A DNA stretch of 20,002 nucleotides from contig JAJZRK010000032.1 in the NCBI GenBank assembly GCA_021802745.1, forward strand, positions 1 to 20,002, written 5' to 3'. Origin of the DNA: a bacterium. GTDB taxonomy: Bacteria; Gemmatimonadota; Gemmatimonadetes; Gemmatimonadales; Gemmatimonadaceae. Below are positions 3,738 to 20,002 of this stretch, piece by piece. The position numbers were made by a program, and so were the translations under genes. Every line of letters begins with the position of its first letter. Positions within the stretch are counted from its first letter, which is position 1. The notes under the pieces were generated by a model, which worked only from the letters and a program-made list of their open reading frames with translations, had not been told where the DNA came from and did not search any database.

Positions 3738-3830
3738 GGGAAGGCCTGAGTGGGAATCCGATGCGAGGTGCTGTCGAGACGGGAATGAAGGTCGCGTATT
3801 CGTGGCGCGTGTGCCAGCGACGGACCGCCA

Positions 3831-3869
3831 CGCACGACGGGGGATGGCCACGACGCCATCCCCCGTGCG
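3831..3869 (-). terminator. Strong hairpin between the two minus-strand propeller genes
   Basis: A perfect 10-bp stem (3839-3848 with 3855-3864, GGGGGATGGC) encloses a 6-base loop. After a 3-base bulge it continues into a further 5-bp stem (3831-3835 with 3865-3869). It starts about 20 bases past the stop codon of the upstream gene. No T-run follows on the minus strand, so it may be a non-canonical terminator, an mRNA 3'-end stabiliser or an attenuator rather than a classical intrinsic terminator. Confidence 0.5.
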
Positions 3870-3890
3870 CGGCGAAACAGAACCGTCACC

Positions 3891-6800: not shown

Positions 6801-7136
6801 GCTGTTGCGGGAGTGAGGCTCGCCCGTGCCGAGCCAGACTTGCTGGGTGTCGGACGGGGCGATGGCCAGCACCCCCATGGATGCCACGCGCTTGTCGTCG
6901 AAGACGGGGCGCCACGTCTGCCCATTGTTGGTGGTTTTCCAGACGCCGCCTGCAGCCGCGGCGACGAACAGCGTCTTGCTTGGGCCGGGAATGCCGGCGA
7001 CGTCGGAGAGGCGGCCCATGAAGTTGGCCGGACCGACATTGCGCCACTTCATGGCGGCCGTGGCGGCCGAGTCGAGCGCCTGCGCGTGCAGCGAGGTCGC
7101 GGCGCCGCAGAGGAGGAGAGCCAGACGGAAACGCAT
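3891..7136 (-). CDS. Secreted Asp-box (BNR/sortilin-Vps10-like) propeller protein 2
   Basis: 1081 residues from the ATG at 7136, preceded on the minus strand by a GAGGA ribosome-binding site about 6 bases upstream. The signal peptide covers about residues 1-19 and ends HAQ-A. The propeller region (about 30-770) contains repeated Asp-boxes including TTNNGQTW, SMDGGLTW, STDGGKTW and SADAGKTW. The C-terminal part differs from its two paralogues. A beta-sandwich-like segment is interrupted by a long Gly/Ala-rich insertion holding a Cys pair (CERPLTQWDTFC) that could form a disulfide, and it then resumes with GTYLVTLKV. The protein ends in an acidic tail and lacks the helical tail of the other two. 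It is probably exported and acts in binding or protein-protein contact; its enzymatic activity is unknown. It is divergent from propeller gene 3. Confidence 0.92.
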   Translation of the reverse strand: MRFRLALLLCGAATSLHAQALDSAATAAMKWRNVGPANFMGRLSDVAGIPGPSKTLFVAAAAGGVWKTTNNGQTWRPVFDDKRVASMGVLAIAPSDTQQVWLGTGEPHSRNSIEPGAGIYKSMDGGLTWKFMGLEKTQHIGRIAVDPRNPNVVWVAALGAAWSSNPERGLYKTTDGGATWQLVKFISDKAGFVDVALDPRNPDVVYAASYERLRTPYSLRSGGPGSALWKSTDGGKTWTEITGSGFPTGPKGRIGLSVSLSNPDVIYAMVEAARPSKDGKFTSERVPPDNGLYRSADAGKTWVKTNNANVRPFYYSQVRVDPKNPDRVYFSSTQMQVSDDGGKTSRPAAQAVHVDDHGMWIDPSDPERLVIANDGGIALSFDRGGNFIQPMNLPLAQFYEVSYDMKVPYSVCAGAQDNGTWCGPSRSKTGSVNLAYWFTIAGGDGFYTAQDPTNSDIAFGESQGGNVSRVNVRTGERAALRKPTWQEQYKRWEDSIAMVRGDITKPASKEVTAAVNALKARQKQDSTDLALRFNWNSPFFLSPHNPQTFYFAGNRVLKSTRQGDDLFLISPDLSKKLTAKNDTSMNLTGGITLDATGAETYGTVVALAESYVRPGLLFAGTDDGNVWTSVNDGATWDDLTTMPVVARKGAKGAAPASRFPGLPHTEIYVTRIEPSHFDSLTFYVAFDNHRNNDFTPYLYVTNDGGKTFRSIVNNLPKDMPGDYLHVVREDPTNANLLFVGSSVAVYASIDKGATWTRFMSGMPTVPVYDLKIHPRDHELIAATHGRGIWIADITPLQQMNTTVLAADAHLFVPRTAYEWGEEPTRMASGNGNAQAFFATPSPAYGAEIFYRLGANAPSAVKVTISNAAGEELATLNGPGGAGLRSVSWNYRSTARPAAAPAALSPSEKRDSIIKATRAPVVLDSLTKAKYDSAALVRVRQLLNPPAGGGFGGRFAGGGAGGRGGVGCERPLTQWDTFCARPAEGQAPRPGAADAAAEGGGVQRGGTETDAVKKVFALIGLKVPAPAGRGGFGGFGAGGGEASTGTYLVTLKVGDKTYKQTLRVEGASGGGGFSPFGEDDDR

Positions 7137-7274
7137 AGTGATCCTCGGGCGAGATGGGGCGGAGATGACGTAGAGGTACGCCGCACGCCCCGCATCCGTT
7201 GGCGCCGGGCACCCCGCTAGCCGAGCGCGGGTCCGATGGCGAATTTCTGACGAGCCCTCCTACCCGACCACCAC
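7137..7274. promoter_or_regulatory. Divergent intergenic region between propeller genes 2 and 3
   Basis: These 138 bp separate two genes that read away from each other, so promoters for both must lie here or within the flanking coding ends. Only the GAGGA ribosome-binding site of the minus-strand gene is recognisable. I could not identify convincing -35/-10 boxes or an operator palindrome. Confidence 0.5.
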
Positions 7275-10200
7275 ATGCGCACCTCCCTCTCGCTCGCCCT
7301 CCTCCTCGCGCTGCCGCTCGGCGCCCAGCGCCCCAAGCCCGCCGCCGCGACGCCGGCTGCGCCAGCCGCGTACGACTCCGCCGCCCTTCGCGCCCTGCAG
7401 TGGCGCAACATCGGGCCGTTCCGCGGCGGCCGCGCGGTCGCCATCACCGGCGTCACCTCGCAGCCCCTCACGTATTACGCCGGGTACACCGGCGGGGGCG
7501 TCTGGAAGACCGAGGACGCCGGCATCAGCTGGCGCAACATCTCGGACGGGTTCTTCCGGACCAGTTCGATTGGCGCCATCACCGTGGCGGAATCGGATCC
7601 CAACGTCATTTACGTCGGCACGGGCGAGCATGCGGTGCGCGGCCAGTCGTCGTCGTTCGGCGACGGCGTGTACAAGTCCACGGACGCGGGCAAGACCTGG
7701 ACGAAGATCGGCCTCGAGAAGACGAAGCAGATCTCGAACATTCGCGTGCATCCCAGGAATGCAGACCTCGTCTACGTTGCCGCGCAGGGTGATCGCTGGA
7801 CCGGCACTCCCGACCGCGGCATCTACAAGTCGGCCGACGGCGGCAAGAACTGGACGCTCGTCCTCAAGGGCGAAAATGCGACCAGCGGCGCCAGCGCCCT
7901 CTCGATGGACCCGACGAATCCGCGCATCCTGTACGCGGCGTTCTGGGACCATCAGCGACAGCCGTGGATGGTGCGCTCGGGCGGCCCCGGGAGCGGCATC
8001 TGGAAGAGCACCGACGGCGGCGAAAGCTGGACGCGCCTCACGCAGGGGCTGCCCAAGCTGATGGGGAAGATCGGCGTGGACGTGTCGCCTGCGAAGCCGG
8101 ATCGCGTCTTCGCCATCGTCGAAGCGGAGAAGGGCGGGCTGTACCGCTCTGACGACGCCGGCAAGACGTGGCGGCTGATGAGCGAAGACCGCCTCATCCA
8201 GACGCGCTCGTGGTACTACATGAACATCACGGCCGACCCGAAGAATGCGGACGTCGTGTGGGTCATGAACGCGCCGATCATGCGGTCCATAGACGGCGGC
8301 GCGACCTTCGCGACCGTCCCCGCCAAGCACGGCGACAATCACCAGCTGTGGATCAACCCGTCGGATGCGCACTACGTGGCCAACGCCAACGACGGCGGCG
8401 CGACGATTTCACTCGACGGCGGCAAGAGCTGGGGCACGCAGGACAACCAGCCGACGGCGCAGTTCTACCACATCGCCGTGGACGACGTCTATCCGTTCCG
8501 GCTGTATGCCGGCCAGCAAGACAACACGTCGGTCGTCATCAAGAGCCGCACCGACGGCGCGTCCATTGGCGACGACGACTGGTATTCCGGCCCGGGGTGC
8601 GAGAGCGCCAACGTGGGCGTGGACCGCGCGAACCCGCGCTTCGCCTACGGCGGCTGCTACCAGGGGATCATCGAGGAACTCGACACCCAAAGTGGCCTGA
8701 CGCGGCAGGTCATGCCGTATCCCGCCCTCAACCTCACGGAGCCGTCGGACCAGACGAAGTACCGCTACAACTGGACGGCGCCCATCGTGGTGTCGCAGCA
8801 CGACGGCCGCGTGGTCTACCACGGCGGCAACGTGCTGTTCAAGACGAGTGACCGCGGCCGTCACTGGACGCCCATCTCGCCCGACCTGACCCGCAACGAC
8901 AAGGCGACTCAGGGATTCGGCGGCGGCCCCATCACCAACGAAGGGGCGGGCGGCGAGATCTACAACACGATCGTCACCATCAGCGAATCGCCGAAGGACG
9001 CCAACGTCCTCTGGGTCGGCACCGACGACGGGCTGGTGCAGGTGACGCGCGACGGCGGCACGTCCTGGACGAATGTCACCCCGGCCGGCGTCGGCGAGGG
9101 GCTCTCCAATCACATTGACGCCTCGCCGCACGACGCCGGGACGGCGTACCTCGCCTTCCGCCGCGACCGCCGCGGCGAGTACACGCCGTACCTTTTCAAG
9201 ACGACCGACTTCGGAAAGGCCTGGACGAAGATCACGACCGGCCTGCGCGACGGCGAGCCGGTGCGGAGCGTGCGCGCCGACCCGGCGCGCGCCGGGCTGC
9301 TCTATGCCGCCACCGAGACGGGGGTGTACGTCTCGCTCGACGACGGTGCCTTCTGGCAGCCGTTCTCGCAGAATCTCCCGGTCACGCCGGTCACCGACCT
9401 GGCGGTGCGGCACGACAACCTCTACGCGAGCACCGAGGGGCGTGCCTTCTGGATCCTCGACGACCTTTCTGCGGTGCGGCAGATGGCCGACAGCGTGGTG
9501 AAGCAGCCCGTGCACCTGTTTGCGCCGCGGCCGGCGCTGCAGGTGCCGGGAGGGAACCCGCCGGTACGTGATGCCGGACGCAACGCCCCGGCGGGGGCGA
9601 ACATCTACTACCACCTCGCGGCCGCACCCGACACGGCGACGGCGTTGACGATCGAATTCCTCGACGCGCGCGGCACTGTGGTGCGGACGTACTCCTCAAA
9701 GGCGGCGCCGGGCGCGACCGCACCGGCCGGCGGACGCCGCGGCGGCGGCGCGGTGTCCAATCGCCTAATGCCCAAGGCCGGGCTCAACGCCATGCAGTGG
9801 GACCTGCGCGGCGAGGCGCCCACCCAGCTCGAGGGCATTTCGACGTTCGGCGGCCCCTCCGGCGGTGCGCTCGTGACCCCCGGGCGCTACGCGGTGCGCC
9901 TGCGCTACGGCAGCGTGACGCAGACGCAGCCGCTCGACGTGAAGCCCGATCCGCGCGTCACCACGGACGCCGCCGAGGTCGCCGCGCGCGATTCGCTGTC
10001 GCGCGCCATCGTGGCGCGCGTGAAGGAAATTCACGAGTCGGTGCTGCGCCTGCGCGACGTGAAGGAGCAGGTGCAGAAGATCGTCGAGCGCACCAAGGAC
10101 GCCGAGCAGGCGCAGGCCATCGCCGACAAGGGGAAGGCGATCGCCGGCAAGGTGGATGTGGTGGATCCCAAGCTCACTACCAAGTCGCGCAACGGGCAGG

Positions 10201-10448
10201 ACATCATCAACTACCGCAACGGCATCAACGCGCAGTATCTGTTCCTCCTCGGCAACCTCGAGGGGAACGACGTCGTGACGCAGCCGATGCGCGACCGGTT
10301 TGCCGACCTCGAGAAGATGTGGGGGGCGTTGAAGGCCGACATTGACGTCATTGAGTTGCAGGACGTGCCGGCGTTCAACAAGCTGCTGCAAGACGCGAAG
10401 ATTCCGGGGGTGATTATTCCGGCATCGAAGCCGAAGGTGGCCATGTGA
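7275..10448 (+). CDS. Secreted Asp-box (BNR/sortilin-Vps10-like) propeller protein 3
   Basis: 1057 residues. It starts with a short signal peptide (about residues 1-18, ending GAQ) and a Pro/Ala-rich spacer. The mature part opens ALQWRNIGPFRGGR, closely paralleling propeller protein 2 (MKWRNVGPANFMGR), so the genes are paralogues. Asp-boxes run through about residues 45-740, for example TEDAGISW, STDAGKTW, SADGGKNW and SDDAGKTW. A beta-sandwich-like segment follows (about 770-890), then a long alpha-helical tail (about 900-1040) with many charged residues. That tail resembles the helical tail of protein 1 but not protein 2. No strong Shine-Dalgarno sequence is seen before the ATG at 7275. It is probably a periplasmic or surface protein, substrate unknown. 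Confidence 0.92.
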   Translation: MRTSLSLALLLALPLGAQRPKPAAATPAAPAAYDSAALRALQWRNIGPFRGGRAVAITGVTSQPLTYYAGYTGGGVWKTEDAGISWRNISDGFFRTSSIGAITVAESDPNVIYVGTGEHAVRGQSSSFGDGVYKSTDAGKTWTKIGLEKTKQISNIRVHPRNADLVYVAAQGDRWTGTPDRGIYKSADGGKNWTLVLKGENATSGASALSMDPTNPRILYAAFWDHQRQPWMVRSGGPGSGIWKSTDGGESWTRLTQGLPKLMGKIGVDVSPAKPDRVFAIVEAEKGGLYRSDDAGKTWRLMSEDRLIQTRSWYYMNITADPKNADVVWVMNAPIMRSIDGGATFATVPAKHGDNHQLWINPSDAHYVANANDGGATISLDGGKSWGTQDNQPTAQFYHIAVDDVYPFRLYAGQQDNTSVVIKSRTDGASIGDDDWYSGPGCESANVGVDRANPRFAYGGCYQGIIEELDTQSGLTRQVMPYPALNLTEPSDQTKYRYNWTAPIVVSQHDGRVVYHGGNVLFKTSDRGRHWTPISPDLTRNDKATQGFGGGPITNEGAGGEIYNTIVTISESPKDANVLWVGTDDGLVQVTRDGGTSWTNVTPAGVGEGLSNHIDASPHDAGTAYLAFRRDRRGEYTPYLFKTTDFGKAWTKITTGLRDGEPVRSVRADPARAGLLYAATETGVYVSLDDGAFWQPFSQNLPVTPVTDLAVRHDNLYASTEGRAFWILDDLSAVRQMADSVVKQPVHLFAPRPALQVPGGNPPVRDAGRNAPAGANIYYHLAAAPDTATALTIEFLDARGTVVRTYSSKAAPGATAPAGGRRGGGAVSNRLMPKAGLNAMQWDLRGEAPTQLEGISTFGGPSGGALVTPGRYAVRLRYGSVTQTQPLDVKPDPRVTTDAAEVAARDSLSRAIVARVKEIHESVLRLRDVKEQVQKIVERTKDAEQAQAIADKGKAIAGKVDVVDPKLTTKSRNGQDIINYRNGINAQYLFLLGNLEGNDVVTQPMRDRFADLEKMWGALKADIDVIELQDVPAFNKLLQDAKIPGVIIPASKPKVAM

Positions 10449-10585
10449 GGCGGATGCGGGAAGTGCGGGGTGCAGGGGGCGCGGTGTGGTGCGGGGTGCA
10501 GGGTAAGGTGCGGGGGTAGGCGGGGCGCCGGGCGGAATTGCCGCGCGGTGCTCGCTCCCGAGTTGAGTGCATGATCGGAGGAACG
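10449..10585. repeat. G-rich spacer with 14-bp direct repeat and G-quadruplex potential
   Basis: The spacer between propeller gene 3 and the GH97 gene has G-runs of 3-5 on the plus strand at 10467-10470, 10475-10479, 10493-10496, 10501-10503, 10512-10516 and 10522-10525. The 14-mer at 10465-10478 recurs at 10490-10503. No gene lies here. The run may fold as a G-quadruplex in the coding strand and in any leader RNA of the GH97 gene. Confidence 0.65.
10577..10582 (+). promoter_or_regulatory. Ribosome-binding site deciding the GH97 start
   Basis: GGAGGA lies 3 bases upstream of the ATG at 10586. The alternative in-frame ATG at 10571 and the upstream start at 10538 have no comparable site. Only the 10586 start puts the signal peptide at the N-terminus. 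Confidence 0.75.
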
Positions 10586-12595
10586 ATGACGCCTGCGCGG
10601 CGGGTCGTGCTCGCGGGGATCGTTGGTTCGCTGCTGCTCGCCCCACAGGTGGTGGCGGCGCAATCGCGCGGGCCGTCGTCGCCTGGCCGGCGCGCGTCCG
10701 GCGCCGCGCCGCTCACCGTCAGCTCGCCCAATGGCGCACTGACGGTGACGATCGGGCTCGGGGATCAGCTGACGTGGGCGGTGACGCTGCGCGACAAGCC
10801 AATCCTGAATCCCTCGCGGATCGGCCTCTTGCTCGCGGGCGGACAAATGCTCGGCGCGAGGCCGGTCGTGAAGAAGACGGTGACGCGCAGCGTGGACCAG
10901 ATCCTGCGCCCTGTGGTGCGCGTGAAACGGGCCGAGGTGCGCGATCATTGCAACGAGCGGCGCATGGACTTCGCCGGCGGGTACGCACTGATCGTGCGCG
11001 CGTACGACGACGGCGTGGCCTACCGCTTTGCCACGGCGCTGCCGGGCGAGATCACCGTGCTGAGCGAGGACGCGACGTTCGCGTGGGCGGGCGACCACGA
11101 GATCTACTTCCCCGAGGAGACGAGCTTCCAGTCGCACCAGGAACGCCAGTACAAGCAGGTCAAGATCAGCGAAATCGGGAAACGCTTCTCGTCGCTCCCG
11201 GCGATGGTTGTGCTCGCCGATGGGGTGAAGGCGGTCCTCACCGAGGCCGACCTGTTCGACTACCCGGGCATGGACCTCACAGGCGACAGCGCGGCGCTGA
11301 CGCTGCGCGGGCTGTTCCCCGCCTATCCGAAGCGTGTCGAACTCCGCCGCGACCGCGACGAAGTGGTGATCGAGCGCGAGGACTACATCGCGAAGACGAA
11401 GGGAACACGAGCGTTCCCTTGGCGCGCGCTCGTCGTCGCCGAGCGTGACGAGACGCTGCTCGACACCGACCTGGTCTACCGCCTCGCGTCGGAGACGACG
11501 ATGACCAACACCGGCTGGATCTGGCCGGGGATCGTGTCGTGGGACTGGTGGCACGCCAACAACATTTACGGCGTGCCGTTCCGCGCCGGCGTGAACACGG
11601 AGACGTACGAGTATTACATCGATTTTGCCGCCGAGCAGAAGATCCCGTACGTCATTCTCGACGAAGGGTGGTATCCGCTGGGCAACCTGCTCGCCACCGT
11701 GCCGGCCATCAACATGGACACGCTCGCCGCGTACGCCCGGGCGAAGCACATCGGCCTCGTGATGTGGGTCGTCTGGAAGACCCTCGACCTGCAGATGCAG
11801 CCGGCGCTCGACCAGTTCGCGCGGTGGGGCGTGAAGGGGATCAAGGTGGACTTCATGCAGCGCGAAGACCAGTGGATGGTCAACTTCTACGAGCGCGTCG
11901 CGCAGGAGGCGGCCAGGCGGCATCTCGTCGTGGATTTCCACGGCGCGTACAAGCCGACGGGGCTGTATCGCACCTATCCGAACGTGGTGACGAGCGAGGG
12001 CGTGCTCGGGCTCGAGCAGAGCAAGTGGAGCGACCTTGCCTCGCCCGACAACGCGGTGACGTTCCCGTTCATGCGCATGCTCGCCGGGCCGGTGGACTAC
12101 ACGCCGGGGGCGATGCAGAATGCGACGAAGTTCGACTTCAAGCCGGTCTGGGGCCGCCCGATGAGCCAGGGGACGCGCTGCCAGCAGCTGGCGATGTACG
12201 TCGTCTTCGAAAGTCCGCTCCAGATGCTGGCCGATTCGCCCTCGAACTACCGGAAGGAGCGGGAGAGCCTCGCCTTCCTCGCGGCGATGCCGACGGTGTG
12301 GGACGAAACGCGCGTGCTCGCCGCCAAGGTGGGCGAATACATCGTCGTCACCCGGCGGTCGGGGCGCGACTGGTATCTCGGGGCGCTCACCAACTGGACG
12401 GCGCGCCAACTCGAGGTGGACCTGTCATGGCTCGGCGCCGGCGCATTCAACGCGGACATCTTCCGCGACGGCCCCAACGCCGATCGGGTGGCCGTAGACT
12501 TTGCGCGCGAACAACGCCCAGTGACGGCCGGCGATCGGCTCACGCTGCGCCTCGCGCCGGGCGGGGGCTTCGCGGCGCGCATCGTGCCGCGCTAG
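10586..12595 (+). CDS. Exported glycoside hydrolase family 97 (probably retaining, alpha-galactosidase-like)
   Basis: 669 residues with a signal peptide (about 1-26, ending VVAAQ). The N-terminal beta-sandwich (about 30-290) begins LTVSSPNGALTVTI, the usual opening of GH97 proteins. A TIM barrel (about 300-580) follows, with WDWWHANNIYG, ILDEGWYP and IKVDFMQRED, and then a C-terminal beta-domain. GH97 contains inverting alpha-glucosidases (SusB type) and retaining alpha-galactosidases. The retaining type uses an Asp nucleophile in a KVDF context and a Glu acid/base; Asp422 (KVDF) and Glu471 (TSEGVLG) fit those places. A retaining enzyme cleaving alpha-galactosides is therefore the best inference; exact substrate is uncertain. 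No SusC/SusD transport genes are in the window. Confidence 0.9.
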   Translation: MTPARRVVLAGIVGSLLLAPQVVAAQSRGPSSPGRRASGAAPLTVSSPNGALTVTIGLGDQLTWAVTLRDKPILNPSRIGLLLAGGQMLGARPVVKKTVTRSVDQILRPVVRVKRAEVRDHCNERRMDFAGGYALIVRAYDDGVAYRFATALPGEITVLSEDATFAWAGDHEIYFPEETSFQSHQERQYKQVKISEIGKRFSSLPAMVVLADGVKAVLTEADLFDYPGMDLTGDSAALTLRGLFPAYPKRVELRRDRDEVVIEREDYIAKTKGTRAFPWRALVVAERDETLLDTDLVYRLASETTMTNTGWIWPGIVSWDWWHANNIYGVPFRAGVNTETYEYYIDFAAEQKIPYVILDEGWYPLGNLLATVPAINMDTLAAYARAKHIGLVMWVVWKTLDLQMQPALDQFARWGVKGIKVDFMQREDQWMVNFYERVAQEAARRHLVVDFHGAYKPTGLYRTYPNVVTSEGVLGLEQSKWSDLASPDNAVTFPFMRMLAGPVDYTPGAMQNATKFDFKPVWGRPMSQGTRCQQLAMYVVFESPLQMLADSPSNYRKERESLAFLAAMPTVWDETRVLAAKVGEYIVVTRRSGRDWYLGALTNWTARQLEVDLSWLGAGAFNADIFRDGPNADRVAVDFAREQRPVTAGDRLTLRLAPGGGFAARIVPR

Positions 12596-12621
12596 CCGCC
12601 GCGCCGCTCGCGCAACCCGCG

Positions 12622-13488
12622 CTACTCGCGCGACTCGCCGCCGTACGCCGGGTCACCCTCGGGCGGCCCGAGATGACGCAACGGGGCCTCGAGGATGTCG
12701 CGCACGAGGCCCAGGGACCGCGCGCTGTAGAACGCGGCGTGGATGCGCTCGTCAAAGCTCCAGCGCACCCGCAGCCCCGGCCGCACCACCAGCGACTCAC
12801 CCTCGATGAACGGCATGTACGCGGGGGCCGACACCGCCCCGAAGATGGACACCGTGCCGTACTCGTACAGATGATGGTACGCGTCGCTGGTCCCCGCCGA
12901 GCCGAGGTTCGCGAGGAAGATGCTGGCGAACATCGGGTCGGGCGCCGTCATGAACTGCGGGAAGAGGTTCCAGCGGTCGAGCAGCTTGGCGCCGGCAACG
13001 ACCAGGCGCACGAGCGGTCCCGGCAGGCGCATGATCAGCGCTGTCTCGCGGTCCACCGCGCGCTCCGTCTGCTGCGCCTCGCGGATCGTCGCGGCGAGGC
13101 GTTCGGCGAACAGGCAGAAGCGTTCGCCCCGCGCGACCTCGAGCTTGACTGTCGTCGAGTGGCCGTCGTCGCGCAGTTCCCTCTTCACGACGAATGAGAG
13201 CTGCACCCCGCGGCGCTGGTAGAGCCGGCCGCCCGAGACGAAGCGGTTGAGTTCCGGACGCGCGTGCAGCGCCTGCGCCACCGCATAGGCCAGCACATGA
13301 AACAGCGTGGCGTGCTGCGGGTGCGTCCGGTTGTAGGCCTTGGGCCAGGCGCGAGCCTCCTGGATCCGGAACGTCGAGTCATTCAGGACGATGCTCTCGT
13401 TTCGCCCCGGCATCAGGTACGGCATGATGCGCCGCATCGGCTGCTCGCCGCGGATCAGGTCGCCGTCGTGTCTACGAAAGAACGGCAC
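12622..13488 (-). CDS. Stand-alone E2-like acyltransferase-fold protein (2-oxo acid dehydrogenase E2 catalytic-domain family)
   Basis: 288 residues from a GTG start at 13488. The next in-frame ATG (13437) would remove the HDGDLIRG...MRRIMPYLM segment, which I recall as conserved in this family. There is no lipoyl domain and no subunit-binding domain, only the chloramphenicol-acetyltransferase-like catalytic fold. NRFVSGGRLYQRRGVQLSF (about 81-99) and the C-terminal VRWSFDERIHAAFYSARSL (242-259) are family landmarks. The classical E2 motif DHRxxDG is here DERIHAA: the catalytic His position is Glu247 and the DG pair is AA. Normal acyl transfer chemistry is thus doubtful. It lies 54 bp after the PLP-enzyme gene, so it may be the last gene of that operon. 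The leader is C-rich with no Shine-Dalgarno sequence, and the true start is uncertain. It converges on the GH97 gene across 26 bp. Confidence 0.8.
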   Translation of the reverse strand: MPFFRRHDGDLIRGEQPMRRIMPYLMPGRNESIVLNDSTFRIQEARAWPKAYNRTHPQHATLFHVLAYAVAQALHARPELNRFVSGGRLYQRRGVQLSFVVKRELRDDGHSTTVKLEVARGERFCLFAERLAATIREAQQTERAVDRETALIMRLPGPLVRLVVAGAKLLDRWNLFPQFMTAPDPMFASIFLANLGSAGTSDAYHHLYEYGTVSIFGAVSAPAYMPFIEGESLVVRPGLRVRWSFDERIHAAFYSARSLGLVRDILEAPLRHLGPPEGDPAYGGESRE

Positions 13489-13513
13489 GGGGAAGGGGGC
13501 GGGGTGCGGGGGG
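13489..13513 (+). other. G-quadruplex-type motif abutting the E2-like gene start
   Basis: Four G-runs of 4, 5, 4 and 6 occur at 13489-13492, 13495-13499, 13501-13504 and 13508-13513, separated by loops of 2, 1 and 3 bases. The motif is on the plus strand, which is the template for the minus-strand gene, and touches its GTG codon. The corresponding mRNA leader is C-rich, leaving no room for a purine-rich ribosome-binding site. Confidence 0.6.
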
Positions 13514-13542
13514 ACAGCTGGCGCGGGGAAACCGGACGTGAC

Positions 13543-14661
13543 TCAACGGATCGCACCGCGCGCGCTCACCGGCCAGAGTGTCTCGACCACGCCATCGCGC
13601 ACGCCGACGATCCAGTCGTACAAGTTGACGGTAGGATCGCAATGGCCGGGCACCAGCAGCAGCTTGTCGCCGAGCGCGGGGCCGTGCGCCTCGGGCGCCA
13701 CGGCGAGCACGCCGTGCTCGTCCGATTCGTTCACGTACTCGACGCCCGGCATCTGCCACACCCCGGGCATCCCTGAATCGAAGGCCAACGACTTGATCCC
13801 GGCGTCCACCACGGCGCGGGGCGCCGCGGAACGGCTCATGACCGTCGTCCAGACAAAGAGGCTCTGCTCAAAGGCGGGCCAGTTCGCGTCGAACTCGTTG
13901 CGATTGTAGTCGGCGTCCATGAAGATGTACGAGCCGGGCTGCACTTCGTCCCACGCGCCGCTCGCGGCCTCCAGCGGGAAGCTTCCCGTCCCGGCGCCGG
14001 TGACCGTGTCGCACGGAATGCCGTCGGCGACGATCAGGGCGCGCGTCGAGCGGATCATCGCGACGGAACGGCCAATTGCCTCGCGGCGCGCCGCCACCGT
14101 GCGCACGTGCTGGGCGCTGCCGTGGTAGGCCTGCAGTCCGGCGAAACGGAGATGCGCGCTGTCCGCCACCTGACGCGCGAGCGCCAGCGTCGGGGCATCG
14201 GGCTCGGCGCCGCACCGGTTGCCGCCGACATTCACCTCCACCAGCGTGTCGAGCCGCACGCCGGCGCGCGCCGCGGCGGCATTGAGGTCGGCCACGTTCT
14301 GCGCCGCGTCAACGCAGACGGCGATCTTCGCCTGGTGGGCGAGTCGCGCCAGGCGCTGGAGCTTCTGCTCCCCGACGATTTCATTCGACACGAGCACGTC
14401 GGGAACGCCGCCGGCCACCAGCGCCTCGGCCTCGCTCACTTTCTGGCAGCAGACGCCCACGGCGCCTGCCGCCATCTGCCGCCGCGCAATCTCGGCGCAC
14501 TTGTGGCTCTTGGCGTGCGGGCGCAGCCGCACGCCGGTGCCGCGCAGGAGGTCCGCGGCGCGCGCCACGTTGCGCTCGAAGGCGTCGAGATCCAGGATCA
14601 GCGCGGGCGTGTCAACGGCCGCCAGCGGCATGCCGATGGCGGCCGGGAGCGTGGTCGTCAT
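13543..14661 (-). CDS. PLP-dependent D-threonine aldolase/D-serine dehydratase-like (DSD1) family enzyme
   Basis: 372 residues from the ATG at 14661. This start overlaps the upstream stop as ATGA; the longer frame to 14718 would run far into the dipeptidase gene. The N-terminal alanine-racemase-like barrel carries RPHAKSHK, in which Lys51 is the expected PLP Schiff-base lysine. VEVNVGGNRCG and the GAGTGSF phosphate-binding loop follow, then the C-terminal beta-domain with PGHCDPTVNLYD. The His340-x-Cys342 pair fits the divalent-metal site of the family. Characterised D-threonine aldolases are reported with His-x-Asp and D-serine dehydratases with His-x-Cys, so a Zn-type D-serine dehydratase-like activity is the closer match. 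There is no signal peptide, so it is cytoplasmic. Coupling to a dipeptidase suggests use of D-amino acids released from peptides. Confidence 0.88.
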   Translation of the reverse strand: MTTTLPAAIGMPLAAVDTPALILDLDAFERNVARAADLLRGTGVRLRPHAKSHKCAEIARRQMAAGAVGVCCQKVSEAEALVAGGVPDVLVSNEIVGEQKLQRLARLAHQAKIAVCVDAAQNVADLNAAAARAGVRLDTLVEVNVGGNRCGAEPDAPTLALARQVADSAHLRFAGLQAYHGSAQHVRTVAARREAIGRSVAMIRSTRALIVADGIPCDTVTGAGTGSFPLEAASGAWDEVQPGSYIFMDADYNRNEFDANWPAFEQSLFVWTTVMSRSAAPRAVVDAGIKSLAFDSGMPGVWQMPGVEYVNESDEHGVLAVAPEAHGPALGDKLLLVPGHCDPTVNLYDWIVGVRDGVVETLWPVSARGAIR

Positions 14662-15914
14662 GGCCGGGCGGCCGCCTTCTCCACCTGCTCCATGACGCGC
14701 AGTAGGTTGCCGCCCCACAGCGCGATGATGTCCTTCTCGCTGTAGCCGCGGCGCACCAGTTCGACGGTCACGTTGATGGACTCGCTGGCATTGTCATAGC
14801 CGTTCACGCCGCCGCCGCCGTCGAAGTCGGACGAGATCCCCACGTGGTCAATACCGATGAGCTTCACGGCGTAGTCAATATGATTGACGAAATCGGCCAC
14901 CGTGGCGCGCGGCGACGGCGGGAACTTGGCGTCAATCTCGGCTAGGCTCTTGCGATAGCGCGTCATCAGCGAGTCGTTGGGTGCGCCGCCGGGACGGCGG
15001 GCGCCGAATCCCAGCGACTGCCGCAGGTCGGCAATCGCCTGGGCGCGCGCCGGCGAGTCGGGCGTCGGGACCTTCACGAAACTCGACAGCGCCACCAGCT
15101 GCGCCACGCCGCCGTTCTTCTTGAGGGCGAGCAGCAGTTCGTCGTCGAGATTGCGGCGCACGTCGGCCAGCGCGCGCACGCCCGAGTGACTGGCGATCAC
15201 CGGCGCCTTCGAGAGCGCCATCACCTGCAGATTGGACTGCTTCGACGGGTGGGAGATGTCCAGCATGATGCCGAGCCGGTTGGCCTCGGCCACCACCTGC
15301 CGGCCCAGCGGGCTGAGGCCGTTCCAGCGCCAGACGCCGTCATTCTCGCCCGTCCCCGAGTCGGTGAGTTGATTGTGCCCGTCGTGCGCGAGCGACAAGT
15401 AGCGCGCGCCGCGGTCGTAGAACAGCTTCACATTGGTGATGTCGGTGCCGATGCCCCAGCCGTTCTCCATGCCCATCAGCGCCACCTTCTTGCCGGCCGC
15501 GTGGATGCGCCGCACGTCGGCCGCGGTATAGGCGATCGCGATGCGCTCGGGCGCCATCTGCTCGGCGAGTGTGTGCACGGCGTCGAACTTCTCGAGGTCG
15601 GCGGCCTTCGCGGCGGCGTAGCCCGAGTCGCTGAAGTCCTGCCGCTGCCCGACGTAGATGCTGAAGAAGATCGCGTCGAGTCCGTCCTGCTCCATCTTCG
15701 GGAGGTCCACCTTGTTGCGCTCGATGCCCGTGACGTAGTTGGGCGGCGGGCCGATCATCTGCGCCGGATTGAAGTCCACGTGCGTGTCAATCTTGATCGC
15801 CTTCGCGTGAATGGCACGGGCCGTGGCCATGAGGGCGGCATCATCCTGCGCCTCAGCGACGGCGGCAACGGTCAGGCACAGTGCGAGCGCGCGAAACAGG
15901 CGCGAAATCGGCAT
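14658..15914 (-). CDS. Exported M19 (membrane/renal dipeptidase family) dipeptidase
   Basis: 418 residues from the ATG at 15914, preceded by GGGAG about 7 bases upstream on the minus strand. The longer frame to 15974 would bury the signal peptide. The signal peptide is about residues 1-22 (ending AEAQ). The binuclear zinc set of family M19 is complete: His45 and Asp47 (DTHVDF), Glu150 (GMENG), His222 (DISHPS), His243 (ASHSG) and Asp363 (SSDFDG). Family members hydrolyse dipeptides and often accept a D-residue at the C-terminal position. The enzyme should act in the periplasm. Its stop codon overlaps the start of the PLP-enzyme gene by 4 bases (ATGA), pointing to translational coupling and a shared D-amino-acid or peptide-salvage role. 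Confidence 0.93.
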   Translation of the reverse strand: MPISRLFRALALCLTVAAVAEAQDDAALMATARAIHAKAIKIDTHVDFNPAQMIGPPPNYVTGIERNKVDLPKMEQDGLDAIFFSIYVGQRQDFSDSGYAAAKAADLEKFDAVHTLAEQMAPERIAIAYTAADVRRIHAAGKKVALMGMENGWGIGTDITNVKLFYDRGARYLSLAHDGHNQLTDSGTGENDGVWRWNGLSPLGRQVVAEANRLGIMLDISHPSKQSNLQVMALSKAPVIASHSGVRALADVRRNLDDELLLALKKNGGVAQLVALSSFVKVPTPDSPARAQAIADLRQSLGFGARRPGGAPNDSLMTRYRKSLAEIDAKFPPSPRATVADFVNHIDYAVKLIGIDHVGISSDFDGGGGVNGYDNASESINVTVELVRRGYSEKDIIALWGGNLLRVMEQVEKAAARP

Positions 15915-16169
15915 ATCCGAACTCCCGTAAAGGTGGCAGACGCCGCGGACTGTCGGCGCCCGAATCTGCGTCATCGGCGGGGACGTCGCACCTGTTGCTA
16001 CGCATCACCCTACTGTAGCGATGGAGGGTCGCCGTCCGGCTCGCCGTGCAGGGAGATCTTGTGTGGCGTCGGGGCAGGGGCGGCCGGTGCACGGCAACGG
16101 CAGGCCTCCGCGCGCCGCCGTAGGCGAGACCGGGTCGTACAGATCGAGAGCGACGTTCCCGTTGGGCGT
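15915..16169. other. Intergenic region upstream of the dipeptidase operon
   Basis: These 255 bp must contain the dipeptidase promoter and the 3' end of the redox-module transcript. Apart from the GGGAG ribosome-binding site near 15922-15926 I see no convincing gene, hairpin terminator or clear promoter boxes. G+C is high here (about 72% in 16021-16080 by hand count), in contrast to the redox block on its right. I looked for the missing N-terminal half of a receiver domain here and found none. Confidence 0.5.
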
Positions 16170-16310
16170 CTACGGCCGGCGTTCCCGCTTCCCGGAATCC
16201 GGAGACTCGAAATACCGAAACAGCAGAATCAGCAGCACGAGAAACGCCATCAACAGCAGGTATTCCAGTCCCTTTGTTTCGAAGATATTGACGTAGTAGT
16301 AGCTCTCCAT
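16170..16310 (-). CDS. 46-residue single-pass membrane micro-protein of the HybA/HybB module
   Basis: This short gene is easily missed. The ATG at 16310 is preceded by a strong AGGAGAGG ribosome-binding site (16317-16324) with 6-base spacing, and the frame ends in TAG at 16170-16172. The product opens MESYYYVNIFETKG, has one hydrophobic helix (about residues 16-31) rich in Leu, and ends with a charged tail (SGKRERRP). From memory, similar NIFETKG-type membrane segments occur beside, or as the N-terminal anchor of, GcvH-like proteins in redox gene clusters. It could therefore be a complete accessory subunit or the surviving N-terminus of a longer anchored protein. The ribosome-binding site overlaps the stop codon of the preceding reading frame, consistent with an operon. 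Confidence 0.78.
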   Translation of the reverse strand: MESYYYVNIFETKGLEYLLLMAFLVLLILLFRYFESPDSGKRERRP

Positions 16311-16316
16311 GTCCGG

Positions 16317-16324
16317 CCTCTCCT
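16317..16324 (-). promoter_or_regulatory. Ribosome-binding site of the 46-residue micro-protein
   Basis: On the minus strand this reads AGGAGAGG, six bases before the ATG at 16310. It is one of the strongest Shine-Dalgarno sequences in the window and supports translation of the short gene. It overlaps the TAG at 16323-16325 that closes the upstream HybB-tail frame. Confidence 0.75.
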
Positions 16325-16447
16325 ATTGGAACCTGCTGCGTCGCATGACCGGCATCCGGGACACCACCCACCGGAAGACCCATATTTCCACCGAGATGAC
16401 CATCAGCGGATCTCCTGCCACGACGGGAAATAGTGCACCGGCACGTC
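16323..16447 (-). pseudogene. Detached C-terminal tail of the HybB/NrfD subunit (stop plus frameshift)
   Basis: Directly after the TGA that ends the HybB-like frame (16448-16450), the same frame continues with DVPVHYFPSWQEIR and then meets a second TGA. In the next frame an ATG at 16403, overlapping that stop as TGATG, opens MVISVEIWVFRWVVSRMPVM and ends at 16323. Family members, as I recall them, end with a segment of the type YFPSW, a last membrane helix, then FRW and RMPV. The two pieces together therefore look like the missing tail. An AGGAG lies at 16412-16416, so the last 26 codons could still be translated separately. Loss of the last helix by mutation, or two sequencing errors, would both explain this. 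Confidence 0.7.
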
Positions 16448-17563
16448 TCACTTGAAGGCGATCACGGACAGGTTGAGCCGGTTGAGAATGACGCCGAGGA
16501 TCGCGAGCGCCGCCCCCGTCCGGATGATGTTGACATTCCGGTGCTTGACACCGAAGGCGAGCATGGATCCGGGAATCAGTACGAGACTCATCTCGAGGGC
16601 GTACCAGAACCCCCAGAAGTCGTGGAGGAGGGTCCATTGCTTGCCATGCAGGAACGTCAGCAGCTTGAAAAAGTAGTAGACGAACACTCCCACGGCGGCG
16701 AACTTCGCGAGTCCAATGATGATCTCGTCGTGCGACGCATGGTGCTTCGGATCGATGTGGTCCTTGAGCACGCGGTGGGTGATGCTCCCCTCCACGATGA
16801 CCATGCTGAGGCCGGCGAACATGCTGGACGTGAAGAACAGGATGGGGACGAACTCGGAGTACCAGAGGGGGTGGATCTTCGGCTTCGCCATCAGGAACAA
16901 CGCGCCGAGCCCGGATTGGTGCAGCGTCGAGAGCGTAATGCCGAAGATGACGGCCCCGAGCGTGACTGCTGCGAGCCACTTCTTGACACGCTGCCATCCC
17001 AGCCAATCGGCGACGACCGGTGAGAACTCCAGGAACTCCGCCGCCATGTAAAGCATGAAATGCCACGCCACCAGGAAGAGCACAGAGTTGAATCCGAAGG
17101 AGTTCCCGATGATCGGGTTGATGATGTTCCAGGGGCGGCCGAGGTCCAGCGTCAGCGCCCCGGCGTAGAAGACGTACGCGAGAAAGCCGTTCAGGACGGT
17201 CACGTTGACGATCGGATGGTACTTCTCGACGCGCATCACAGAGACGATGAACGTGATGCAATACGCGCCGCCGGCCAGGGCAACCCCAGTGATCACGTCG
17301 AAGCCGATCCAGAAGCCCCAGGGGAAGTCCTGGTTCAGATTGGGGACGGACCCCAGCCCCTTGGCGAAGCGGACGACGAGAATCGCCAGGCCGAGGAGCA
17401 CGATGGGAACGGTGATCAGGTTGAAGGCCGTGAAGTACGGAGGTCTGGGCTTGATCTCCGCAATCATGAACCTCACGAACCGAACGGCCTCCCTCGACAA
17501 CTGGGGTCGTTCCTGCGTGGCCCTCGATTCCGCTTGGGAAGAGACTGCGCGTGAGTCGGTCAT
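16448..17563 (-). CDS. hybB: NrfD/HybB-type integral membrane quinone-interacting subunit, C-terminally shortened
   Basis: 371 residues with about nine hydrophobic segments (roughly 46-68, 85-110, 122-142, 158-180, 197-225, 237-262, 283-305, 318-338 and 346-368). PWGFWIGFDVITGVALAGGAY and DLGRPW are landmarks of the HybB branch of the NrfD family. These subunits anchor a ferredoxin partner and exchange electrons with menaquinone. The start overlaps the HybA-like stop as ATGA, so the two are coupled; GAGGA sits about 12 bases upstream of the start. The protein ends at NRLNLSVIAFK by a TGA, after which family-like sequence continues, so the last membrane helix is missing. No cytochrome c or catalytic subunit is present in the window. 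Confidence 0.85.
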   Translation of the reverse strand: MTDSRAVSSQAESRATQERPQLSREAVRFVRFMIAEIKPRPPYFTAFNLITVPIVLLGLAILVVRFAKGLGSVPNLNQDFPWGFWIGFDVITGVALAGGAYCITFIVSVMRVEKYHPIVNVTVLNGFLAYVFYAGALTLDLGRPWNIINPIIGNSFGFNSVLFLVAWHFMLYMAAEFLEFSPVVADWLGWQRVKKWLAAVTLGAVIFGITLSTLHQSGLGALFLMAKPKIHPLWYSEFVPILFFTSSMFAGLSMVIVEGSITHRVLKDHIDPKHHASHDEIIIGLAKFAAVGVFVYYFFKLLTFLHGKQWTLLHDFWGFWYALEMSLVLIPGSMLAFGVKHRNVNIIRTGAALAILGVILNRLNLSVIAFK

Positions 17564-18426
17564 AGGTCCGGTGTGTCCTCGGCTGCCGCGTCGTCATCGG
17601 TTCTCGCCAGCAGGTTCAATCCCATCAGGAAGGCCGGGAGCCCGAAGAGCACGACGGGCACGGCGTAGAGGAAGCCCGTCGTCATCTCCGGATATGGGGT
17701 CGTCCCCAGGTCTGTGCGGAACCCGATTTGCTCGAATGGTACGGCGGAGAGATACAGCCAGCCCGTACCGCCGACCTCGTGCTCGCCGTAGATCTTGTGC
17801 ACGTAGCGCTCGGGGTGCCGGTAGATGCGCACCCGCACGATCTCCATCAGGTCCCGCTTGCGGCCGAACATCAGGGCGTCATTCGGGCAGGATTCCACGC
17901 AGGCGGGTTTCTGCCCCTGTTGCAGGCGCTCCCAACAGAGGTCGCACTTCTGGATCTTCGGATTGGCGGAGTGGTATTCGAACTTCGGGATGTCGAACGG
18001 GCAGGAGACCATGCAGAACCTGCACCCCATGCATTTCGACGAACGCCAGATCACCGGCCCGACGTCGGTCTTGTACATGGCATTCGTCAGGCAGGCGGCG
18101 GTGCACGCCGGCTGCCAGCAGTGCATGCACTGCTTCTTGACAAAGACCTCGCCCTTGTCCGTCTCATACCGGTTGACCACCGTATACTGTGTCTCGCTCG
18201 TCGTGCGCAGCTTTGCCAGCGCCCCGTCATTCTCGACATCGGGCACGGGCAGGTCGTGCACCGAAGCGCAGGCGACCTCGCACGAGCGGCAACCGATGCA
18301 ACGTGTGGTGTCGACGAGGACCCCCACAAACTCCTTGTCCGGCTTGACTGGTTCGGCGAGGACCGGCTTGGCGGCAACGGTGAGACCCGCCGCACCAGCC
18401 AGCCCGAGGAAATTCCTTCGTTCCAT
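17560..18426 (-). CDS. hybA: Tat-exported HybA/HmcB-type four-cluster ferredoxin subunit
   Basis: 288 residues. It opens MERRNFLGLAGAAGL, a twin-arginine signal. Four cysteine groups suit four [4Fe-4S] clusters: Cys43/46/49/53, Cys100/103/108/112, Cys132/135/138/142 and Cys161/164/176/180. A C-terminal hydrophobic helix (about 252-275) anchors it in the membrane, as in HybA and HmcB. It would relay electrons between a periplasmic partner and the NrfD/HybB-type subunit encoded next, with which it overlaps by ATGA. The region before its ATG has no Shine-Dalgarno sequence and no room for a promoter outside a neighbouring gene remnant: it runs at once into the truncated receiver/GcvH gene on the other strand. 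Expression from this position is therefore doubtful. Confidence 0.92.
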   Translation of the reverse strand: MERRNFLGLAGAAGLTVAAKPVLAEPVKPDKEFVGVLVDTTRCIGCRSCEVACASVHDLPVPDVENDGALAKLRTTSETQYTVVNRYETDKGEVFVKKQCMHCWQPACTAACLTNAMYKTDVGPVIWRSSKCMGCRFCMVSCPFDIPKFEYHSANPKIQKCDLCWERLQQGQKPACVESCPNDALMFGRKRDLMEIVRVRIYRHPERYVHKIYGEHEVGGTGWLYLSAVPFEQIGFRTDLGTTPYPEMTTGFLYAVPVVLFGLPAFLMGLNLLARTDDDAAAEDTPDL

Positions 18427-19143
18427 GAGCGTCGGAAGCGGCGCATCGCTACGCCGGTGATCCTGACGACGGGCATGAGCACCATGCAGAATGCGGTGCG
18501 CGCGCTCGGCGCGGGCGCGATCGACTTCATCCCCAAGCCGTTCACCTCCGACGAACTGCTCGCGTCGGTGCGGCGCGGCCTGGTGTACGCGCGTCTGCAG
18601 GAGGAAGCCGAGGCGACAGCGCGCGATGCCCGGCCCGACACGATCGCCTGGGTGCCGCCGCCGCCCTCTTACTACCGCCTCGGCTACGCCTCATGGCTGA
18701 GCGCGGAGCGCGACGGCACGGTGAAGGTGGGCGTGACGGACCTGTTCGTGCGCACGGTGGACGTCATTCAGTCCGTGGTCTTGGCGGCGGCAGGCGACGA
18801 ACTGGTGCAGGGCAGCAGTTGTGCGACGATCGCTGCCGCCGACGGGCTGGAGCACGGGGTGCTCTGTCCGGTCAGCGGCCGGGTGGTCGAGGTGAACGCG
18901 GCGATGGCGGAGGTTCCTGCCGGACTGGAGCGCGACCCGTATTTTGAAGGGTGGCTGTACCGGGTACTCCCCTCCGAGTTGCAGTACGACCTGCATCATC
19001 TGACCGCGTGCAGTTCAGACCGGATCCAATGGCAACGTCAACTCTGTAGAGGATTCACCGTATGGTACTCCTACTCTTGCTCCTTTCTGTCGTGCTGTTC
19101 GTGCTCGCTGACCTTGGCGTGCGCGAAGTCACGAAGTCCCTGA
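18427..19143 (+). pseudogene. 5'-truncated response-regulator/GcvH-like fusion
   Basis: The frame enters abruptly in the second half of a receiver domain: ATPVILTTGMSTMQNAV, then GAIDFIPKPF with the conserved Thr and Lys. The acidic pocket and phosphoacceptor Asp are absent because the upstream DNA is the HybA-like gene on the other strand. A Pro-rich link (VPPPPSYY) leads to a GcvH-like domain (about 18709-19000) ending VLCPVSGRVVEVN...DPYFEGWLYRV. At the place of the lipoyl-lysine, eight residues before the PVSG proline, there is Gly. The GcvH part ends near 19000-19010. The remaining codons to the stop at 19143 overlap the next gene by 82 bp and look like read-through, so the natural stop may also be lost. 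It is a gene remnant, or half a gene at an assembly join. Confidence 0.75.
19048..19053 (+). promoter_or_regulatory. Ribosome-binding site of the anchored receiver/GcvH gene
   Basis: AGAGGA lies 8 bases before the ATG at 19062. It fixes the start that gives an N-terminal membrane anchor. Confidence 0.7.
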
Positions 19144-20002
19144 GCGAGAACGCCAAGCAGCGGGAGCGCGAGGAGGCGCTGGCGGTGAGCCTCAAGCTCG
19201 ACGTCTCGCGCGAGGCCAAGTCGCTCAAGCGCGCCGAGGTCAGGGACCCCGTGGCGCGCATCCTGTGCGTGGACGACGAGGACGTCATTCTCGACTCGTT
19301 CCGCAAGATCCTCGTCCTCGACGGCTACGCCGTGGACACGGTGCAGACCGGGCAGGAGGCGCTCGGCCTCGTGCAGTCGCACCACTACGACGTCGTCTTC
19401 ACCGACCTCAAGATGCCGGCGATGGACGGCGTGGACGTCGTGAAGGCGGTCAAGCACATGCGCCCCGATATTGACGTGATCGTCATCACCGGCTTCGCGA
19501 CGGTCGAGACGGCGGTGGAATGCATGAAGTTCGGCGCCACCGACTACGTGCAGAAGCCGTTCACCGAGGACGAACTGCTGGCCTTCGTGAAGAAGACGCT
19601 CATCCGCCGGCAGGACCGCATCGCGAAGCTGCTCAAGCCGTCGGTGCACGTGTCGCACCTGCCCGAGGTGGACCGCGTGCGGCGCAGCGAGTTCTCCATC
19701 CCGGGCGGCGCGTTCATCTCGGCCGGCCACACCTGGGCGACGATGGCGCCGGACGGGTCGGTGAAGGTTGGCATGGACGACTTCGCCAAGAAGCTGCTCG
19801 GGCCCGTGGACTCGATCGAGTTCCCGCCCATCGGGATGACGGTGAAGGTTGGCCAGCCGCTGTTCGTGGTGCGCCAGAAGAAGCGCCGCGTGCAGTTCAC
19901 CACGCCCATCAGCGGCCGCGTGACCAAGACCAACACCATGCTCGCCGAGGACACCGAGGCGCTCGAGCTGTCGCCCTACGCCAAGAACTGGGTGTGCGTA
20001 GA
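19062..20002 (+). CDS. Membrane-anchored response-regulator/GcvH-like fusion (3' end beyond the window)
   Basis: At least 313 residues, running off the window without a stop. Residues 2-18 are a hydrophobic anchor, followed by a charged, probably helical linker (about 20-62). A complete receiver domain follows (about 66-180): acidic pair Asp71/Asp72, phosphoacceptor Asp115 in FTDLKMPAMDG, Thr143 and Lys165 in QKPF. Next is a GcvH-like domain (about 220-313): HTWATMAPDGSVKVGMDDFA, then FVVRQKKRRVQFTTPISG. Lys274 stands eight residues before the PISG proline, the lipoyl-lysine position of GcvH, so lipoylation is plausible. There is no DNA-binding domain before the window end. This is not the glycine-cleavage H protein; no gcvT or gcvP is near. 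The location beside HybA/HybB genes suggests a redox or signalling role of a lipoyl-like carrier, which is inference. Confidence 0.88.
   Translation, partial: MVLLLLLLSVVLFVLADLGVREVTKSLSENAKQREREEALAVSLKLDVSREAKSLKRAEVRDPVARILCVDDEDVILDSFRKILVLDGYAVDTVQTGQEALGLVQSHHYDVVFTDLKMPAMDGVDVVKAVKHMRPDIDVIVITGFATVETAVECMKFGATDYVQKPFTEDELLAFVKKTLIRRQDRIAKLLKPSVHVSHLPEVDRVRRSEFSIPGGAFISAGHTWATMAPDGSVKVGMDDFAKKLLGPVDSIEFPPIGMTVKVGQPLFVVRQKKRRVQFTTPISGRVTKTNTMLAEDTEALELSPYAKNWVCV

Follow-up and report, generated by a model that had tools for sequence, protein, structure and literature searches.

A conserved operon joining an Hmc-like redox module to receiver-GcvH-like proteins, and its probable remnant in a Gemmatimonadaceae contig

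The stretch of DNA considered here (20,002 nucleotides of contig JAJZRK010000032.1, from a bacterium of the Gemmatimonadaceae; hereafter the window) ends with two plus-strand genes, F1 and F2, whose products combine a response-regulator receiver with a domain like that of GcvH, the H protein of the glycine cleavage system. Beside them lies a minus-strand block for an iron-sulfur protein, an NrfD-type membrane protein and a micro-protein, resembling HmcB, HmcC and HmcD. A real and widespread operon, apparently not described before, stands behind this arrangement, and the window probably carries a rearranged, decayed and non-functional remnant of it. The reading to which we incline, with little more than even confidence, is that the operon couples an Hmc-like quinone/cytochrome-c electron-transfer module to a two-component system of its own, with the GcvH-like domains acting to dock on or gate that module. 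No account of receiver-GcvH proteins with this operon was found in the literature searched, which comprised open-licence texts.

A protein search with F2 gave 4098 matches at E ≤ 0.001, and the 120 relatives listed all have receiver and GCV_H domains; a scan of genome contigs with F2 gave 193 relatives, of which the best 80 by F2 similarity supply the operon counts. The genes of the operon follow one another as HmcB, HmcC, a multiheme cytochrome c, a diheme-c sensor kinase, F1 (receiver-GcvH) and F2 (anchor-receiver-GcvH), with median lengths of 268 amino acids for F1 and 384 for F2 over the 80 loci. The six genes lie on one strand in 53 of the 55 loci that have at least 6.3 kb before F2 (25 of the 80 have less and were left out), and this order is kept in 49. 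Of the loci whose sequence extends 2.9 kb or more ahead of F2, all 64 have the kinase gene upstream of F2 on the same strand. Among the exceptions, locus L008 has no F1 match, L075 has kinase, F1 and F2 only, and L012 has the same six genes reordered (3887-10939), with kinase and F1 before HmcB, HmcC, cytochrome and F2. Three loci (L040, L051 and L052) carry a B subtype of HmcB, as opposed to an A subtype, subtypes being assigned by percent identity and not by a tree; a small cytochrome precedes HmcB in these three, and it is the cytochrome counted. Carriers among the 80 loci include Gemmatimonadetes, Elusimicrobia, Bacteroidetes, Ignavibacteria, Kiritimatiellaeota, Opitutaceae, Calditrichaceae, Xanthomonadales, Stygiobacter electus and others.

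The same association is seen in a sample of 245 genomes, spread evenly over the class to which L022 (Bacterium BMS3Abin03) belongs, a class that also contains L057 (Ignavibacteria) and is inferred to be Ignavibacteria. F2 is present at E ≤ 1e-80 in 32 of these genomes, 30 of which have HmcB on the F2 contig at a distance of 4.9-6.5 kb. HmcB typing in this class sample used 56 matches, namely all those at E ≤ 1e-120, the threshold for a strong match, together with 2 B-type matches in F2-bearing genomes, weaker rows being left out. F2 is rare in Gemmatimonadota, being found in 8 of 395 sampled genomes at E ≤ 1e-70 (the phylum name is inferred from L002-L006). The association of F2 with HmcB is beyond chance, as it recurs in relatives; a hypergeometric value for the class sample is left out of account, the genomes being related and some rows omitted. 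An earlier, sequence-only reading of the window had named as support for its idea a recurrence of receiver-GcvH fusions with HybA/HybB/NrfD genes and with micro-proteins of the NIFETKG type; the first part is borne out for HmcB and HmcC, and the second holds for the three B-type operons, the same search giving no match in the rest of the 80 loci.

Cofactor and kinase signatures are strongly conserved in the operon, as counted on full-length proteins (65 of 76 kinases, 51 of 59 cytochromes and 53 of 56 A-type HmcB proteins, the three B-type HmcB proteins standing outside the count). In its N-terminal part the kinase combines a single CxxCH with a Cx4CH motif in 65/65, the H-box is likewise present in 65/65, and HAMP, HisKA and HATPase_c domains were confirmed by Pfam in two kinases. 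The A-type cytochrome has 13 CxxCH motifs in 51/51, and A-type HmcB combines 16-17 cysteines with a twin-arginine motif in 53/53. As a separate observation, a cysteine-rich segment resembling a zinc ribbon is inserted ahead of the C-terminal ATPase match in the kinases (e.g., L004, 7245-9119), with two C[PT]xC motifs in 61/65.

In the receiver of F2, Asp72, Asp115, Thr143 and Lys165 are found in 120/120 of the listed relatives and Asp71 in 119/120; those of F1 are nearly invariant in its 120 listed relatives, the exceptions being gaps and one Glu at Asp11. Response-regulator output domains are mostly DNA-binding or enzymatic. F2 and intact F1 share with NtrC/FixJ-type regulators the acidic pair, the phospho-Asp, the Thr and the Lys, but in place of such an output they have a GcvH-like domain, and F2 of the pair is membrane-anchored; no DNA-binding domain was found in F1 or F2 by Pfam. 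Control by phosphorylation, as surmised from the window, is consistent with these invariant residues and with the linked sensor kinase of the relatives, a kinase that has no match in the window itself.

The GcvH-like output is a different matter. The sequence-only reading, in which F1 and F2 are lipoylated carriers and phosphorylation controls how they serve quinone-linked electron transfer, now appears very improbable. The GCV_H domain is clearly there, homologous to that of GcvH (PDB match 3a7a, which we take to be the Escherichia coli H protein, at 5.1e-14). At the lipoyl position, located by alignment to H proteins of solved structure, Lys is present in window F2 (Lys274) and in 23 of its 120 listed relatives. 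However, the other 97 lack it, His (40) and Asn (34) being commoner, followed by Arg (9), Gly (6), Gln (4) and four others once each. In the 120 listed F1 relatives the position is Asp in 101 and Lys in only 2, and 12 receiver-less GcvH-like proteins that lie beside HmcB and HmcC in Gemmatimonadota (the type C loci below) never have Lys there. F1 scores 48.8 bits with the NCBIfam gcvH model, far under its cut-off of 115.85, and for F2 gcvH falls outside the best 25 matches. No glycine-cleavage partners are seen in the operon, nor are GcvP, GcvT or LpdA among the nine window proteins scanned, the data covering the window and not the rest of the genome. With receiver residues essentially invariant and the lipoyl Lys variable, phosphorylation appears to have been kept and lipoylation not, and a carrier role of F1 and F2, being unlikely from these residues, was rejected. 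Some proteins annotated as "glycine cleavage system protein H" are by the same token probably not lipoyl carriers.

What the domain may do instead is suggested by loci in which it occurs without receivers. B-like HmcB is found in 12 of the 395 Gemmatimonadota genomes at E ≤ 1e-95, and six of these loci were examined (L113-L118, type C). An anchored GcvH-like protein stands before HmcB in five of them (L113-L117), and in all six an HmcD-like N-terminus fused to a GcvH-like domain follows HmcC (Table 1), the domain being doubled in L118 and, in L113, known by tblastn only. L113-L117 have a third GcvH-like protein, and one anchored protein of L114 is missed by the Pfam GCV_H model yet aligns with F2. 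The HmcD-like protein of the window matches the N-termini of five fusions at 37-46% identity (E 2.5e-10 to 2.5e-6, in a BLASTP search against only 12 sequences with composition correction off). In L113, L114 and L116 these are followed by a kinase bearing a single CxxCH and by a regulator whose N-terminus is of the NtrC type, the sigma-54 domain of the latter being confirmed by Pfam in L114. An M54-type metallopeptidase comes after these kinase and regulator genes in L114 (2419-2970, minus strand, Pfam), and genes of L116 (15453-16052) and L117 (15695-16246) look alike. Quite apart from receivers, the receiver-less neighbors and the HmcD fusions connect GcvH-like modules with the membrane complex, which suggests that such modules dock on it. 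A bolder version of this idea, which we consider rather unlikely, is that a GcvH-type domain, mostly without the lipoyl Lys, is a dedicated subunit module of NrfD/HmcC-type quinone complexes (three per receiver-less operon, one of them fused to HmcD), and that a c-heme kinase phosphorylates the receiver version to gate electron flow, so that the output would be a respiratory complex and not a promoter.

The redox core is also found without the signaling genes. In the class sample, 24 of the 54 members with a strong HmcB match have no F2 at E ≤ 1e-80, and all eight loci examined from these 24 (L120-L127, mostly on longer contigs) have HmcB, HmcC and a cytochrome with no kinase, F1 or F2 beside them. 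The cytochromes have 13 CxxCH motifs in six loci and 12 in two; in L125, HmcB is known from the search match and is not among the called frames, and in L124 a weak receiver-like match to F2 (57 bits) about 5.5 kb away was taken as an ordinary PAS/receiver protein. As the core occurs without kinase, F1 and F2, the signaling genes look like an optional control layer on a self-standing redox module.

Put together, the favored reading is as follows. From the sequences, the redox core consists of HmcB, a Tat-type ferredoxin, HmcC, an NrfD-type subunit, and the cytochrome with 13 CxxCH motifs, and the signaling part of a c-heme membrane kinase, soluble F1 and membrane-anchored F2. The c-hemes of the kinase would follow the redox state of the chain of periplasmic cytochromes, and the kinase would be expected to phosphorylate F1 and F2. 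Their GcvH-like domains, mostly lacking the lipoyl Lys, may then serve as docking or gating modules, rather than carriers, on the cytoplasmic face of HmcC (or HmcC-HmcD), where they could tune electron flow between quinone and cytochrome.

The same genes could also form a classical two-component system, in which the heme-c kinase senses redox state or an electron acceptor, F1 and F2 relay the signal by protein contacts elsewhere, and the GcvH-like adaptor never touches HmcB and HmcC. This we hold to be unlikely, though only moderately so. The constant presence of the kinase upstream of F2 fits it, as does L075, where kinase, F1 and F2 occur without HmcB and HmcC in the 7 kb before the kinase and in a genome without an HmcB-A match at E ≤ 1e-60. 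The type C kinase, whose partner is a regulator of the NtrC type (read from the sequence in L113, L114 and L116, with the sigma-54 domain scanned in L114), has an ordinary transcriptional output. On the other hand, F2 is membrane-anchored as read from its sequence, F1 and F2 have no Pfam DNA-binding domain, and the receiver-less GcvH-like domains adjoin HmcB and HmcC and are fused to HmcD, pointing to the complex.

Several points weigh against the coupling and gating reading. The choice of the best 80 of 193 loci by likeness to F2 inflates operon conservation, which the class sample corrects in part; in that sample, HmcB is on another contig in 2 of the 32 F2 genomes. L008 without an F1 match and L012 with its different gene order depart from the pattern, and two Opitutaceae genomes with kinase, F1 and F2 (L075 and L065, metagenome-assembled genomes whose completeness is not known) have no HmcB-A match at E ≤ 1e-60, so that the triplet may work without the complex. 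Finally, the gating step is predicted from gene fusion and neighborhood only, and the GcvH-like module could bind other targets.

The redox core has known counterparts. Tail-anchored ferredoxin, HybB-like quinol oxidase and cytochrome c three-gene modules, as well as Hmc, are described in part of PMC10924467. Fe-S/NrfD pairs without a molybdopterin subunit have been proposed as quinol:acceptor reductases feeding periplasmic cytochromes (passages of PMC3534657 and PMC9386147), among them the NrfCD pair of Melioribacter roseus, proposed to feed periplasmic multihaem cytochromes (PMC3534657). The core logic is the same here, where HmcB-HmcC-cytochrome stands alone in the eight core-only loci; the relevant passages of PMC10924467 and PMC3534657 mention no kinase or receiver-GcvH protein.

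Hmc of Desulfovibrio vulgaris (HmcA-F, Rrf1, Rrf2) has in common with the operon a tail-anchored Fe-S protein, an NrfD subunit, a multiheme cytochrome c (in the relatives) and regulators alongside, according to the description in part of PMC10924467. That the system is nothing more than the Hmc transmembrane complex known from sulfate reducers, together with its Rrf regulators, is improbable. HmcB and HmcC are the best NCBIfam matches, and B-subtype operons have a small hydrophobic protein after HmcC, the 46-residue window protein sitting in the place of HmcD (D. vulgaris HmcD itself not being compared). However, both scores are under the equivalog cut-offs. The A-type cytochrome has 13 heme motifs and not the 16 of HmcA, and the window has no match to the relatives' cytochromes, HmcA not being among the queries. 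The gene orders of the relatives and the listed frames of eight loci leave no place for HmcE (NarI-like) or HmcF (GlpC-like), for which no dedicated family search was made. Moreover, the relatives' operon adds a heme-c kinase and two receiver-GcvH-like proteins, which are no part of Hmc in the passages of PMC10924467 that describe it.

In the window, the three minus-strand frames, a 46-residue membrane protein, an NrfD-type protein and an Fe-S protein, are confirmed by the list of open reading frames (Table 1), but the HybA/HybB naming of the latter two did not stand. The Fe-S protein scores 342.8 bits with NCBIfam HmcB (cut-off 420) against 215.8 with HybA (cut-off 263), and the NrfD-type protein 335.6 bits with HmcC (cut-off 550) against 220.7 with the HybB-type model (cut-off 450); all four scores are under the curated cut-offs, HmcB and HmcC are still the closest named families, and a hydrogenase-type identity was rejected. 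Window HmcB matches Pfam PF13247 at 75.7 bits, has a tail anchor as read from the sequence without a predictor, and is 66-72% identical to the B-type proteins of G010-G012 and 46-51% to A-type ones. Window HmcC matches PF03916 at 53.2 bits and is 64-68% identical to the B-type proteins of L051, L052 and L040 versus about 30-36% for A-type operons. Compared with these three, its frame is cut short by a premature stop at 16448, followed by a frame shift near 16409; it comprises 371 amino acids versus 397-406 in relatives, with the last ~30 residues out of frame. The HmcD-like protein is 58% identical over 43 residues to a 45-residue protein between HmcC and the kinase in L051.

Both plus-strand proteins have the GCV_H domain (PF01597, cut-off 22.2), with 58.9 bits in F1 and 56.8 in F2. 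F2 is the fusion described from the sequence, having a hydrophobic N-terminus (read without a predictor) and a complete receiver (PF00072, 107.8 bits) with acidic pair, phospho-Asp and Lys; it is 98% identical to relative P0002 and 92% to P0003, and orthologues are mostly about 387 amino acids long. The claim of a second receiver-GcvH fusion holds for the GcvH-like part of F1 only. Homology to full-length F1 begins at about residue 67-72 (window 18421-18436, the range over comparisons), at the HmcB start codon, so over half of the receiver is missing, and with it the phosphorylation site, which is residue 55 in relatives. The piece scanned from 18478 matches PF00072 at 19.2 bits, under the cut-off and over profile positions 81-110 of 111 only. 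The first ATG is at 18475, and the native stop is lost, such that the frame extends to 19143. This 222-residue protein (P0312, listed on a contig of 29,075 bases) is 90% identical to L001 F1 over 69% of the latter, and no second truncated form is evident among the 120 listed F1 relatives.

Table 1. Features of the window and HmcD-GcvH-like fusions of type C loci
Feature	Location	Position	Strand	Basis
M19 dipeptidase; left neighbor of the operon in L001, L003 and L004; synteny marker, outside the system	window	14658-15974	-	PF01244, 297.5 bits; tblastn 72-76%
Replaced segment: inverted HmcD-HmcC-HmcB block	window	15993-18432		blastn collinearity on both sides
46-residue single-span membrane protein, HmcD-like, NIFETKG motif	window	16170-16310	-	ORF and similarity
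HmcC-like/NrfD-type quinone-interacting membrane subunit, B subtype, broken C-terminus	window	16448-17563	-	Pfam, NCBIfam, identity
HmcB-like Tat-exported, tail-anchored 4Fe-4S protein, B subtype	window	17560-18426	-	Pfam, NCBIfam, identity
F1 remnant: receiver stub and GcvH-like domain	window	18475-19143	+	Pfam; comparison with L001, L004 and L015
F2: N-terminal membrane anchor, complete receiver, GcvH-like domain	window	19062-20000, open at window end	+	Pfam and identity
HmcD-GcvH-like fusion next to HmcB/HmcC	L114	6870-7559	-	
HmcD-GcvH-like fusion next to HmcB/HmcC	L115	6745-7440	-	
HmcD-GcvH-like fusion next to HmcB/HmcC	L116	10406-11104	+	
HmcD-GcvH-like fusion next to HmcB/HmcC	L117	10931-11686	+	
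HmcD-GcvH-like fusion next to HmcB/HmcC, doubled domain	L118	5495-6751	-	

Window HmcB, HmcC and HmcD lie on the strand opposite to F1 and F2, unlike the operon genes in 53 of 55 testable relatives. The window is collinear with the close relative L001 over 12452-15992, a segment of three genes ending with the M19 peptidase, and collinearity resumes at 18433-19999 (the rest of F1 and F2). Between these segments, 5.7 kb of L001 (3610-9325, with HmcB-A, HmcC-A, the 13-heme cytochrome, the kinase and the 5' part of F1) is replaced by 2.4 kb, and queries from the relatives' operons, HmcA not among them, found no kinase or cytochrome match in the window at E ≤ 1e-3.

The block may be a real replacement that then decayed, or the product of a chimeric assembly. 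In the latter case, an HmcBCD contig of another organism would have been placed inside a Gemmatimonadaceae operon during metagenome assembly, which is quite possible though not the probable explanation. The composition fits such a chimera, with 15751-18000 unlike the rest of the window, a GC content of about 0.61 in the block versus 0.65-0.71 in other sub-windows, and the block a tetranucleotide outlier. At the right junction, F1 homology starts only a few bases from where HmcB begins, leaving no room for a promoter of either gene's own, and no ribosome site is evident before HmcB. Five Gemmatimonadota-like relatives (G001-G004 and G007) show A-type HmcB only, at E ≤ 1e-30, and the truncated F1 is the window's own entry, with no other example. 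A weaker point is that the nearest HmcB cluster among the matches listed is 90% identical while F2 has a 98% relative, as the protein database is clustered at 90%, with one member and the longest contig shown per cluster, so that closer copies may be hidden. Against a chimera, the same locus resumes on both sides, with M19 on the left and F1 and F2 on the right, which would require two chimeric joins meeting by chance or through scaffolding, and the window has no N. Breaks flank the right junction (the lost F1 stop, and the HmcC stop and frame shift), as fits real decay, although assembly errors could mimic them. Collinearity and these breaks favor a real event, whereas composition and the absence of both a leader and any second example favor a chimera, whose likelihood was lowered by the finding of broken HmcC and by the effect of clustering on the HmcB comparison.

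One candidate for an independent assembly of the same kind, P0024 (an F2 relative) and P0123 (an HmcB relative), both on contigs of 5386 bases, was rejected, since such a coincidence between two lists of 120 is possible by chance (as judged, not computed) and no listed F1 relative is on a contig of 5386 bases. Misassembly, which the sequence-only reading had named as a way for its idea to fail, would touch the window's own arrangement and not the association of receiver-GcvH proteins with HmcB, which recurs in relatives.

Elsewhere in the window, a short stretch (72-304) resembles sequence just after F2 in L001 and L004 and has matches on both strands, being probably a dispersed repeat. Three long adjacent genes (339-10448) apparently form one repeat-rich family, presumably of sortilin/VPS10-type beta-propellers, and a GH97 glycosidase (10538-12595) comes next. 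The product of 12622-13488 (minus strand) has a weak match of 28.5 bits to a 2-oxoacid dehydrogenase acyltransferase domain, and its relatives lie in the same neighborhood in L001 and L004. No RNA element reaches the Rfam gathering threshold in the window.

The arrangement seen in the window should not be taken for the native system. The operon behind it is of wider interest: with a GcvH-like output recurring beside one quinone/cytochrome-c module and that module's own c-heme kinase, it offers a candidate, open to test, for a respiratory complex controlled directly by phosphorylation. Stygiobacter electus strain 09-Me (L041), which we take to be a cultured strain, carries the operon, and the question may therefore be testable in a living host.

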